Below are positions 37,265 through 56,685 of a stretch of 64,000 nucleotides of DNA, piece after piece. The stretch spans positions 434,001 through 498,000 of the forward strand of contig NZ_JABANC010000002.1 in NCBI RefSeq assembly GCF_012931685.1, read 5' to 3'. The first letter of the stretch is position 1. Each line of letters starts with the position of its first letter. A model generated the notes under the pieces. That model had not been told where the DNA came from. It ran no database searches and saw only the letters and a list, made by a program, of their open reading frames with translations. This DNA comes from Hanstruepera ponticola. GTDB lineage: Bacteria; Bacteroidota; Bacteroidia; Flavobacteriales; Flavobacteriaceae. The translations under genes were made by a program, and so were the position numbers.

Positions 37265-37966
37265 ATGAGAAATTTAATCCCAATTATAATTGCCTTATTA
37301 ATTGTTTCATGTGCGAATGAGAAACAACACGACCTAACTGTTAAAGGAACAATTAAAGACCTTAAGAAAGGAACTGTTTATTTACAAAAAGTTGAAGATT
37401 CTACACTGATAAATGTTGACTCTATGACCATTACAGGTCAAAAAGAATTTATACTTCATTCCGATTTAGAATCACCAGAGGTTTTTTATTTACACCTGAA
37501 CAAAACAAACGAAGATAGTGATCGAAAAATAGTTTTCTTCGCAGATAAAGGCACTACTGAAATACATACTACCCTAAAGGATTTTGCTTTCAATGCAGAG
37601 ATTAAAGGTTCCTCTCAACAGGAAAAATTAGAAGAATATTTAAAAATGATGGAGCGCTTTAATGACAAGAATTTAGATTTAATTAAAACTGAATATGACG
37701 CCAAAGCTGTTAATGATTCTACCCTAATTGAAGAAAACCAAAAAGCTTTTGAAAATTTATTGAAAAGTAAATACCTCTACACGGTCAATTTTGCAGTTAC
37801 TAATAATGATAGTGAATTGGCTCCTTATTTAGCTCTAACGGAGATTTATGACGCTCAAATTAAATGGTTGGATACTATTAATAATGCATTGACTCCCAAA
37901 ATTAAAAACTCAAAATACGGCAGGGAACTCGAGTCCTTTATTAATAAAAGAAAAAATGAACAATAA
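37265..37966 (+). CDS. DUF4369 domain lipoprotein
   Basis: A 233-residue exported lipoprotein: MRNLIPIIIALLIVSCANEK has a lipobox with Cys at about 16. The DUF4369 region follows (about 24-120, LTVKGTIKDLKKGTVYLQK and KIVFFADKGTTEIHT), then a helical part. DUF4369 often lies in front of a thioredoxin-like domain in Bacteroidota proteins, but no CxxC or thioredoxin fold is present here, so this is the short form without the redox domain. Expected in the periplasm or outer membrane. It ends in an overlapping terminator. Confidence 0.85.
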   Translation: MRNLIPIIIALLIVSCANEKQHDLTVKGTIKDLKKGTVYLQKVEDSTLINVDSMTITGQKEFILHSDLESPEVFYLHLNKTNEDSDRKIVFFADKGTTEIHTTLKDFAFNAEIKGSSQQEKLEEYLKMMERFNDKNLDLIKTEYDAKAVNDSTLIEENQKAFENLLKSKYLYTVNFAVTNNDSELAPYLALTEIYDAQIKWLDTINNALTPKIKNSKYGRELESFINKRKNEQ

Positions 37967-37997
37967 AAAAAGCCTCTCAAAATTGAGAGGCTTTTTT
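37965..37997 (+). terminator. Rho-independent terminator of the DUF4369 gene
   Basis: A6-GCCTCTCAA-AA-TTGAGAGGC-T6 starts in the stop codon. The flanking A run also allows it to stop transcripts entering from the minus strand, where it lies behind the tRNA-Thr repeat array. Confidence 0.9.
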
Positions 37998-38005
37998 ATG
38001 ATTAT

Positions 38006-38353
38006 TGAGCCAATGGAGGGACTCTCTTCGACTGCGTTCAGGATAAACTTCTCGCCCTATTTCATAATTTCAAAAACCCTTTGTAAACAAAAAAGTCCAG
38101 TATCAAACTGAACTTTCATTTTGAGCCGATGGAGGGACTCCCTTCGACTGCGCTCAGGATAAACTTCTCGCCCTATTTCATAATTTCAAAACCCTTTGTA
38201 AACAAAAAAAGTCCAGTGTTAAACTGAACTTTCATTTTGAGCCGATGGAGGGACTCCCTTCGACTGCGCTCAGGATAAACTTCTCGCCCTATTTCATAAT
38301 TTCAAAAACCCTTTGTAAACAAAAAAGTCCAGTGTTAAACTGAACTTTCATTT
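38006..38353 (-). repeat. Three tandem 116-bp repeats carrying the 3' end of tRNA-Thr
   Basis: Units start at 38006, 38122 and 38238, each exactly 116 bp, and the next register (38354) is the real tRNA gene. In transcript order each unit holds a hairpin with T6, a spacer, the palindromic element CCTGAGCGCAGTCGAAG and a copy of the last 16-19 nt of tRNA-Thr (plus-strand TGAGCCGATGGAGGGACTC). The unit farthest from the tRNA has the most changes (CCAATGG for CCGATGG, GCGTTCA for GCGCTCA). Confidence 0.95.
38321..38347 (-). terminator. Terminator behind tRNA-Thr, present in each of the three repeat units
   Basis: On the minus strand AAGTTCAGT-TTAAC-ACTGGACTT forms a 9-bp stem with one G-T pair, followed by six T. 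It begins 9 bp past the tRNA. Further copies lie at about 38208-38232 and 38089-38115 in the next units, giving three terminators in series. Confidence 0.8.
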
Positions 38354-38355
38354 TG

Positions 38356-38429
38356 AGCCGATGGAGGGACTCGAACCCACGACCTGCTGATTACAAATCA
38401 GCTGCTCTAGCCAGCTGAGCTACATCGGC
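38356..38429 (-). tRNA. tRNA-Thr (anticodon TGT)
   Basis: A 74-nt cloverleaf on the minus strand with acceptor GCCGATG/CATCGGC, D arm AGCTCAGCTGGCTAGAGC, anticodon stem GCTGA/TCAGC with loop TTTGTAA (anticodon TGT) and T arm GTGGGTTCGAGTCCC. Discriminator base is T and CCA is not encoded. It has its own promoter and is identical to the tRNA at 56612-56685. Its 3' end is copied three times in the adjacent array. Confidence 0.97.
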
Positions 38430-38440
38430 AAAACAGTTCG

Positions 38441-38470
38441 CAAATATAATCTTGTAAATTATAATTGCAA
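38441..38470 (-). promoter_or_regulatory. Promoter of the solitary tRNA-Thr gene
   Basis: On the minus strand TTG (38470-38468), a 19-bp spacer and TATATTTG (38448-38441) give an exact consensus match, ending 11 bp before the tRNA 5' end. Confidence 0.75.
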
Positions 38471-38485
38471 ATTATTTTTTAAAAA

Positions 38486-38755
38486 TTAACCTAACTTGTT
38501 TATTTTTTCGATTAACTCACGACCTTTAGATTCAAGCTCCTGATTAATTGCTTTAAAGTGTGCTTTTTTATCTTCAACTTTTCTATCATTTACTTTTTCA
38601 ATTAAAGTGTCAAAAGTCTCAATAGCCTCGTCAATAATAGCTTCACTTTTTTTTGTGTCTTTGTCTGTATTTGAATATTCCCAAACATAAACAGCTTCAA
38701 TAATATCACCTAATACGTAATTAATATCTTTTTTTAGGTCTCTTTTATTTGCCAT
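38486..38755 (-). CDS. Conserved small helical protein of unknown function
   Basis: An 89-residue, strongly charged, mostly helical protein (MANKRDLKKDINYVLGDIIE at the start, GRELIEKINKLG at the end). It has heptad-like spacing of hydrophobic residues and may form a coiled coil or a four-helix bundle. No signal peptide, so presumably cytoplasmic. No named family recognised. It is preceded by manA on the same strand with 27 bp between, so it may be the last gene of the idi-queD-manA group. Confidence 0.75.
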   Translation of the reverse strand: MANKRDLKKDINYVLGDIIEAVYVWEYSNTDKDTKKSEAIIDEAIETFDTLIEKVNDRKVEDKKAHFKAINQELESKGRELIEKINKLG

Positions 38756-42789: not shown

Positions 42790-42815
42790 ATTTATCGCAA
42801 TTTATGCTGCATTAC

Positions 42816-43069
42816 GCTTGACCAATGGGTCCGAAATTCAAAGGAATTGGTGGTTGCTACATGGAAACATGTCGAGCAACCTTTCTCAAATTTAATTTAG
42901 GCCTGACCAGTGGGTCTAAAATTCAAAGGAATTGGTGGTTGCTACATGTAAACATGTCGAGCAACTTCAACCAATTAAATTTAGGCCTGACCAGTGGGTC
43001 CAAAATTCAAAGGAATTGGTGGTTGCTACATGGAAACATGTCGAGCAACCTTTCTCAAATTTAATTTAG
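42816..43069 (-). repeat. Three tandem 84-85-bp repeats of the 3' end of the DUF3467 gene
   Basis: Units begin at 42816 (85 bp), 42901 (84 bp) and 42985 (85 bp), and the next register at 43070 is the real gene. Each contains the 43-nt gene end (plus-strand 43070-43112, encoding the C-terminal PPIPLNFGPTGQA) with its stop, then a new sequence that completes a hairpin GGTTGCT-ACATG-GAAA-CATGT-CG-AGCAACC, and a spacer. Unit 1 has changes in the gene-end part, and unit 2 has changes mainly in the spacer. Confidence 0.95.
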
Positions 43070-43383
43070 GCCTGACCAGTGGGTCCGAAATTCAAAGGAA
43101 TTGGTGGTTGCTCGTAATCTTTGATTTCACCATGTGCATTTTCAAATCGCGTTACATTTTCACCTAAAGCCTTTAACAAGCGTTTAGCATGTTGCGGTGT
43201 TAAAATAATACGAGATTTAACCTTACTTTTAGGTGTACCAGGCATAATACTAACAAAATCCACTACAAATTCAGAAACCGAATGGTTAATAATTGCTAAA
43301 TTAGAATAAGTTCCTTCAGCAACTTTTTCATCAATCTCAATATTTATCTGACCTTGCTTTTTTTGATTTTTATTTTCACTCAT
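43066..43383 (-). CDS. DUF3467 domain protein
   Basis: A 105-residue cytoplasmic protein. INIEIDEKVAEGTYSNLAII and the end PPIPLNFGPTG are typical of DUF3467, which is widespread in Bacteroidota and commonly found behind rpoC as here. Middle segment: GTPKSKVKSRIILTPQHAKR. Function unknown; the gene context suggests a link to transcription or translation. It starts 51 bp behind the rpoC stop with a terminator in between, so part of its expression may come from read-through. Three tandem copies of its 3' end follow. Confidence 0.93.
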   Translation of the reverse strand: MSENKNQKKQGQINIEIDEKVAEGTYSNLAIINHSVSEFVVDFVSIMPGTPKSKVKSRIILTPQHAKRLLKALGENVTRFENAHGEIKDYEQPPIPLNFGPTGQA

Positions 43384-56577: not shown

Positions 56578-56611
56578 AATAAAATTTAATCCAGTCTTTT
56601 AAAGAACTTTG

Positions 56612-56685
56612 AGCCGATGGAGGGACTCGAACCCACGACCTGCTGATTACAAATCAGCTGCTCTAGCCAGCTGAGCTACATCGGC
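56612..56685 (-). tRNA. tRNA-Thr (anticodon TGT), second copy
   Basis: Identical over 74 nt to the gene at 38356-38429. It is the first tRNA of the cluster and lies behind a terminator and promoter. No repeat array accompanies it. Confidence 0.97.

Follow-up and report, generated by a model that had tools for sequence, protein, structure and literature searches.

The window, a stretch of 64,000 nucleotides of Hanstruepera ponticola (genome G000 below), carries on its reverse strand an intact tRNA-Thr(TGT) gene behind which three tandem units are stacked, designated A to C with increasing distance from the tRNA (Table 1). The three 116-bp units proposed in the initial annotation were recovered both by Tandem Repeats Finder (38005-38372; period 116, 3.2 copies, 96% matches) and by a repeat search of the window, which returned three copies at spacings of 116 and 116. 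Every unit also contains, as had been proposed, the 3' end of the tRNA, copied as a 17-nt tail (A58-C74) with 0, 0 and 1 mismatches in units A, B and C, respectively, and the arm of the window units, GGGC, can form four pairs with this tail, one of which is G-U. The element described there as palindromic, CCTGAGCGCAGTCGAAG, is present, yet it forms an imperfect hairpin and no simple palindrome. The serial terminators held as well, with hairpins followed by T-runs in each unit and another beyond the array; a scan of both strands found six terminator-like sites with T-runs versus a shuffle mean of 0.5, one of the six lying inside the tRNA and two being both strands of the distal terminator. The outermost unit is indeed the most diverged, C differing from A by five substitutions and A from B by two one-base gaps, and the divergence of C means that the array is no assembly artefact in which a single sequence was duplicated. 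An ORF check revealed no endonuclease ORF in the 116-bp units of the window. In an Rfam search of the window the tRNA was the sole match at gathering score, and the RtT covariance model was unmatched in 37900-38500 up to an E value of 10. A second tRNA-Thr(TGT) gene at 56611-56685, identical to that of the array, is followed by no array. Elsewhere in the window, a further tandem repeat occupies 42812-43112 (period 85, 3.6 copies, 90% matches).

Table 1. Features of the array behind tRNA-Thr(TGT), in coordinates of the window.
Feature	Coordinates	Strand	Evidence
Intact tRNA-Thr(TGT), source of the copied 3' tail	38355-38429	-	ARAGORN; Rfam RF00005, 70.2 bits
Unit A, closest to the tRNA: terminator, spacer, arm, GAGAAG hairpin, tail copy	38239-38354	-	Repeat search, unit alignment
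Unit B; 0 substitutions and two 1-base gaps versus A	38123-38238	-	Repeat search, unit alignment
Unit C, outermost and most diverged; 5 substitutions versus A	38007-38122	-	Repeat search, unit alignment
Terminator-like hairpin of unit A	38323-38349	-	Terminator scan
Terminator-like hairpin of unit B	38207-38233	-	Terminator scan
Terminator-like hairpin of unit C	38091-38117	-	Terminator scan
Arm, GAGAAGTTTAT and hairpin module of unit A	38256-38290	-	Core pattern match (G000:C7:472258-472286), pairs as in the family
Arm, GAGAAGTTTAT and hairpin module of unit B	38140-38174	-	Core pattern match
Arm, GAGAAGTTTAT and hairpin module of unit C, core with one substitution	38024-38058	-	Core pattern match
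Tail copy of unit A (A58-C74 of tRNA-Thr), exact	38239-38255	-	Tail comparison
Tail copy of unit B (A58-C74 of tRNA-Thr), exact	38123-38139	-	Tail comparison
Tail copy of unit C (A58-C74 of tRNA-Thr), 1 mismatch; would be the oldest displaced tail in the proposed reading	38007-38023	-	Tail comparison
Terminator beyond the array; a similar one directly behind the tRNA at the empty sites of congeners G001 and G003	37966-37997	-	Terminator scan, congener comparison

Comparison with related genomes had been put forward as a check. In all four congeners compared (G001-G004) the site corresponding to the window array is empty and a terminator lies directly behind the tRNA. Units are present in 4 of the 5 genomes of the genus, at partly different tRNAs. 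Within G000 the core pattern (at most three mismatches) occurs in this array only, three times, and the covariance model R1 adds two weaker copies behind tRNA-Leu(TAG) on contig C6. At that locus (L197; G000:C6:1120300-1122900) the tRNA is followed by two units 112 bp apart, the spacers of which differ. A core-independent scan for tail copies, which covered the 32 distinct tRNA genes (34 hits) of the one genome G000, located a copy with at most three mismatches within 600 nt downstream of five of the 32 (Thr, Leu, Trp, Pro and Ala), against 20 of 982 for non-cognate tails, a control that includes the tails of adjacent tRNA genes. The tRNA-Trp copy has three mismatches and a degenerate module. 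Behind tRNA-Pro(GGG) (L252) and tRNA-Ala(GGC) (L240) of the same genome, tail copies with other loops stand behind T-arm-like hairpins, and the GAGAAG module is missing.

The window units belong to a wider family that follows one plan, in which an arm complementary to the tail from base 59 onward is succeeded by GAGAAG(TTTAT), a hairpin of variable tip, A58 and the tail of the cognate tRNA. A DNA search of 60 relatives found the module behind tRNA-Thr in other genera, and the core pattern was present in 96 of 397 family genomes, where a reversed-pattern control gave 0 among the matches listed; some core-pattern matches are other repeats without a tRNA tail. The loci studied here are those of the core-pattern matches listed. 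Among these, 123 of 153 element hits (at most four mismatches) are preceded on their own strand by a tRNA of the locus, and 106 of 153 match the tail of a locus tRNA, those without a tail match lying in some cases at contig ends or behind displaced tRNA pieces and in others being unrelated repeats (e.g., L031, L045, L075). The cognate tRNAs represent eleven amino acids (Thr, Gln, Trp, Gly, Leu, Met, Ile, Lys, Asn, His and Arg), and weak R1 matches that were read individually place the module, with other tips, also behind tmRNA (e.g., L179) and behind tRNA-Leu(CAA) (L173). Unit length is 60-140 bp in 230 of 251 units. The spacer ahead of the module holds a terminator where the tRNA ends its transcript, and measures only 13-28 nt behind Trp and Ile tRNAs, which we take to be in operons. 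In L061, L065, L102, L131 and L132 the module stands behind displaced tRNA 3' parts, several of which start at the anticodon loop, as island integration leaves them.

The spread of the family is wide and patchy. Model R1 matches 43 of 120 family genomes and 15 of 247 phylum genomes, the strong matches being inside the family. A scan of GTDB contigs with an exact 17-mer gave at least 118 loci, 63 of which (of the 118) hold a tRNA and a tail copy with at most two mismatches, the remainder being truncated at contig edges, having no tRNA found or, in part, matching coding sequence by chance. By their record titles, the 63 include Flavobacteriia, Bacteroidales, Chitinophagaceae, Saprospiraceae, a Chlorobiota bin (L262) and two Patescibacteria bins (L272, Magasanikbacteria, and L285); a Neomarinimicrobiota locus (L330) has a copy with three mismatches and falls outside this count. 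Bins can be contaminated, and the cases from outer phyla therefore call for caution. Judged from these sequence matches, the family appears to be mostly one of Bacteroidota, with a few Chlorobiota and Patescibacteria bins. Spacers are common to different genera at the Thr-cluster and Gln sites, and to G000 and G004 at Leu, which shows that many units are inherited, over long times at some loci, and not newly inserted. Among the literature matches listed, in the portions of text available, no description of these elements was found, and the motif string occurred in no paper.

Both the arm and the hairpin show covariation. After removal of the 47 hits without a tail match and of same-sequence repeats, 94 distinct elements remained of the 153, and in these the pairs -1:59 and -2:60 are formed in 97% each, versus 85% and 72%, respectively, when arms are swapped between tRNA types. 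Pair -3:61 stands at 93% both real and swapped, without an excess because those bases hardly vary. Bases 59 and 60 of a tRNA are unpaired in the T-loop, and the arm is thus more than a copy of the T-stem. The inner stem covaries as well and shows G-U pairs on the sense strand, and the hairpin tip is free to vary in sequence and length. In an alignment of 45 sequences, 92.7% of the cells of the named structure are paired and its covariation is 0.454 versus 0.246 shuffled (0 of 500 as high), and RNAalifold returned, unprompted, 9 of its 11 pairs. This alignment was built from 48 of the 94 elements (at most six per tRNA, at least four differences), less three with a shifted tail register (one of L054, L111 and L114) that were removed by hand, a removal that favors the pairing figures of the 45-sequence set; the arm-swap test used all 94. 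Minimum-energy folds of the 94 elements contain both helices in 15, the outer in 60 and the inner in 22, and that of the window unit alone differs from the consensus (z -0.36). The arm and hairpin may prevent pairing between the tRNA and the displaced tail, or may constitute the end of the element.

The tyrT repeats of E. coli have been a local oddity for decades. The likeness of the window array to these repeats (rtT), drawn in the initial annotation, is correct and goes deeper than was proposed, as the A58 tail start, the arm and GAGAAG all recur in strain MG1655. Downstream of tyrV in that strain, tail copies at +160, +338 and +516 are each identical to A58-A76, with no identity continuing 5' of A58 and a period of 178 bp. 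All three units also have GAGAAG immediately behind a 10-bp arm that is complementary to bases 59-68 of the tail. When an MG1655 unit was shuffled by mononucleotides, an arm arose anywhere in 32 of 20000 shuffles and an arm with GAGAAG in 0 of 20000. The tyrT/tyrV repeats (RtT RNA) resemble the window array in their tandem units (of 178 bp), the A58 tail start, the arm from base 59 followed by GAGAAG, a structured stretch and the position of A58 outside the arm pairing, but differ in a longer GC-rich middle, the 10-bp arm and a CCA encoded in the tail. The accompanying claim of unrelated sequence and convergent origin was not supported, since rtT and the window family have plan, register and motif in common. 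On sequence grounds, and despite unlike middle parts, a common origin would be the most economical explanation. Of 5426 E. coli genomes, 4692 contain the rtT middle sequence, with 1 to 10 places per genome; in the stretch of E. coli SK1144 examined, no tail was found besides those of the two tRNA-Tyr genes.

Units of the same kind also reside together with genes of GIY-YIG nucleases. In L133 and L172, a long unit between tRNA-Asn and its tail copy contains a GIY-YIG ORF (Pfam E 2.1e-12 and 8.6e-10, respectively). A search of 16 genomes, mostly picked as unit carriers, gave at least 115 short hits, those of 370 aa or more being left out. For 26 of the 115 listed, an intact tRNA or tmRNA gene is no more than 400 nt away, and for 34 no more than 850 nt; about one would be expected by chance within 400 nt, an expectation estimated from the 34 tRNA genes of G000, and tandem copies do not count as independent cases. 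Beyond the ORF, a 5' or 3' part of that tRNA recurs, in most cases with a palindrome inside it. The score of this displaced part exceeds 11 in 26 of the 34 (best 40), and in six it is above 22, the maximum of a control of 980 non-cognate comparisons (median 8, 95% point 11); it is at control level in eight of the 34, namely all five tmRNA cases and one each of Arg, Cys and His. In the tRNA-Asn array of genome G366, ORF-less GAGAAG units alternate with GIY-YIG units, the terminators being alike, and in L461, L040 and L070 a single tRNA is flanked 5' by a GIY-YIG unit and 3' by an ORF-less one, the GIY-YIG ORF of L070 reading as interrupted. Genome G201 holds eight tandem GIY-YIG copies with tRNA-Met 3' parts. 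In L458, L468 and L473, a displaced tRNA-Arg 5' part with palindromes precedes a GIY-YIG ORF; the ORFs of L458 and L468 extend into the 5' end of the intact tRNA gene.

Several clades of the tRNA-associated nucleases follow their targets. In a tree of 103 GIY-YIG domains, which has few columns and long branches and in which near-copies help the label to cluster, the label of tRNA association required 5 changes versus 30 when shuffled (0 of 500); this label was given to 40 proteins, counted before identical ones were merged, that lie within 850 nt of a tRNA or in the G201 array. Grouping by target across genera was seen for five tmRNA, three Leu(CAA), three Arg(TCG) and three Arg(ACG) cases, support for Arg(ACG) being weak. 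All 40 tRNA-associated domains have Y, Y, R, H and E at the expected positions, which we take to be the active-site residues of GIY-YIG domains. GIY-YIG ORFs occur in only 8 loci among 305 motif-bearing locus-strands, repeat fetches included, and in G000 no GIY-YIG gene lies within 400 nt of a tRNA (seven short hits among the matches listed). As the window units have no endonuclease ORF and G000 has no tRNA-linked GIY-YIG gene among these hits, the window array can represent a satellite at most, and not an autonomous member.

Taken together, these data make it probable that the array consists of tandem ORF-less satellites of a family of mobile elements that targets tRNA genes. We infer active insertion, cutting of the tRNA gene by the nuclease and movement of the ORF-less units with its help. 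In the model that we propose, a new unit would enter the T-loop between bases 57 and 58 and supply a fresh 3' tail, leaving the tRNA intact, and the older tail, preceded by the arm and hairpin module, would be pushed downstream. As the tRNA gene is rebuilt, the target would remain open and units could stack, the newest next to the tRNA and the oldest outermost. The GIY-YIG gene of related units lies between the intact tRNA and the displaced part, an arrangement like that of mobile ORFs of fungal mitochondria. Insertion with replacement of the gene end would account for a single T-loop start, a cognate copy, an intact tRNA, the old terminator beyond the last copy and an outermost copy that tends to be the worst. 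The distal tail is worse than the proximal one in 16 arrays and the reverse holds in 3, with 27 ties (at most three mismatches), and the ratio is 14 to 3 at two mismatches or fewer; at five or fewer it is 27 to 3, and the stricter figures (16:3 and 14:3) are relied upon. Present-day copies would, on the mobile-element reading, be a mix of old and newer units, and no change from an empty to a filled site was caught in action. A fusion in L094 (G028:C2:482000-485200) was considered as an insertion end and set aside as a single event; here, a module with Leu tails is fused to a manA-like 5' end at an arm-like TTTGGGGAGGC, the remaining manA being absent from the stretch examined. Transport by phages or plasmids was rejected, as a 41-nt query gave no match in plasmid sequences and, of 46 viral contigs with the two 16-mer motifs, only one (L411, near a contig edge) held a true element by eye.

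The covariation and the sense-strand G-U pairs could also be expected of a conserved structured RNA or 3'-processing element under selection, its tandem copies arising through slippage between tails. Such an element would be kept across genera at the same tRNA, as is observed, though direct repeats of 17 bp about 100 bp apart should, we would expect, be easily lost, and E. coli annotations list RtT among the sRNAs. However, the occurrence is patchy (43 of 120 family genomes; partly different tRNAs in the 4 of 5 genomes of the genus), and a terminator stands ahead of the module where the tRNA ends the transcript; the window unit, too, lies behind a terminator. The minimum-energy fold of the window unit also departs from the consensus and both helices form in 15 of the 94 folds only, and the GIY-YIG units in the same arrays are left unexplained. 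A structured RNA is therefore an unlikely reading of the whole. Integrases that target tRNAs leave behind a copy that matches the tRNA from its T-loop through to its 3' terminus, and each tail copy might on this basis be the attR of a decayed integrative element; L061, L102, L131 and L132, in which displaced tRNA 3' halves from the anticodon loop are followed by the same module, point the same way. We nevertheless regard such island footprints as decidedly improbable, since the great majority of units (230 of 251) are only 60-140 bp long, with one conserved module in most, and the distance from arm to tail is set by a hairpin of variable length with no fixed short overlap. Passive tandem duplication at the tRNA 3' end, free of mobility or function, is the most doubtful account of all: it would fit the near-identity of the units of one array, terminator included, and the 1 to 10 places that the rtT sequence occupies in an E. 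coli genome, but local duplication alone cannot have set one motif, its arm and tail matched to the tRNA, behind many tRNA types in distant phyla. It is still likely for the growth of copy number inside an array, and replication slippage, named in the initial annotation as a possible source, may act there in the same manner, but it does not explain one motif with cognate arm and tail behind many tRNAs of distant taxa.

The mobile-element reading would make the family a bacterial counterpart of the fungal mitochondrial mobile ORFs. According to PMC3630166, mobile ORFs of fungal mitochondria (Allomyces atp6; Glomus atp6, atp9, cox2 and nad3) insert with a new gene end and displace the native end downstream, the endonuclease of the Glomus atp9 mobile ORF is of the GIY-YIG type, and an endonuclease was shown biochemically to be responsible for mobility. 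The likeness lies in the displaced gene end beyond the insert (tail copies in the window, cognate parts beyond GIY-YIG ORFs elsewhere), whereas the mobile ORFs reside in mitochondrial protein genes and the elements described here in bacterial tRNA or tmRNA genes, at 5' or 3' ends, with tandem arrays, a palindrome within the displaced part and ORF-less satellites. Casposons, as described in PMC4046053, target tRNA 3' ends with direct repeats but are gene-rich (Cas1 and PolB), with a target overlap of only four to seven tRNA bases; the window units share with them the tRNA 3'-end target and the direct repeats, but neither this gene content nor this overlap is seen. Likeness to the hairpin ribozyme and to integron attC sites was dropped on reading, as changes at base 59 are compensated in the arm and the known signature of crossover is missing.

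The rtT plan, down to its base register, recurs behind many tRNAs of Bacteroidota and of a few bins outside that phylum, and some arrays physically link it to GIY-YIG genes, several clades of which follow their tRNA. With chances that we would put at about even, the family could comprise bacterial mobile elements that span phyla and are driven by small, target-specific GIY-YIG nucleases; homing to tRNA and tmRNA genes, the elements would exchange one gene end for their own and move the native end, with a hairpin, out of place. Their commonest remains would be satellites without an ORF, among them the window array and E. coli rtT. The origin of the rtT repeats is now directly testable by a simple nuclease assay. 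Annotators are thereby warned that what looks like a tRNA fragment or a "small RNA" behind a tRNA gene may be a gene end that was displaced.

Like REP elements and their RAYT partners, as presented in PMC3733652, the family consists of short hairpin repeats, and the hairpin core GAGCGNAGTCGA stands beside some GIY-YIG genes distant from tRNAs. Spread of REP type driven by a RAYT was rejected, as the Y1 (TnpA REP) transposase PF01797 was unmatched in G000-G004 and, where it occurs (12 of 40 relatives), showed no visible link to the units. Among the tRNA-distant GIY-YIG genes, the GAGCGNAGTCGA core (at most one mismatch) lies within 300 nt in 12 of 67 loci, one of the 12 (L480) being in G000, and its density near these genes is 0.65 versus 0.07 per kb farther away. 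In L113, a GAGAAGTTTAT module stands just upstream of one such gene, and in L480 (G000:C11:21400-23800) a GIY-YIG gene is flanked on both sides by REP-like hairpins in opposite orientation, which have the GAGCGNAGTCGA core in common with the array.
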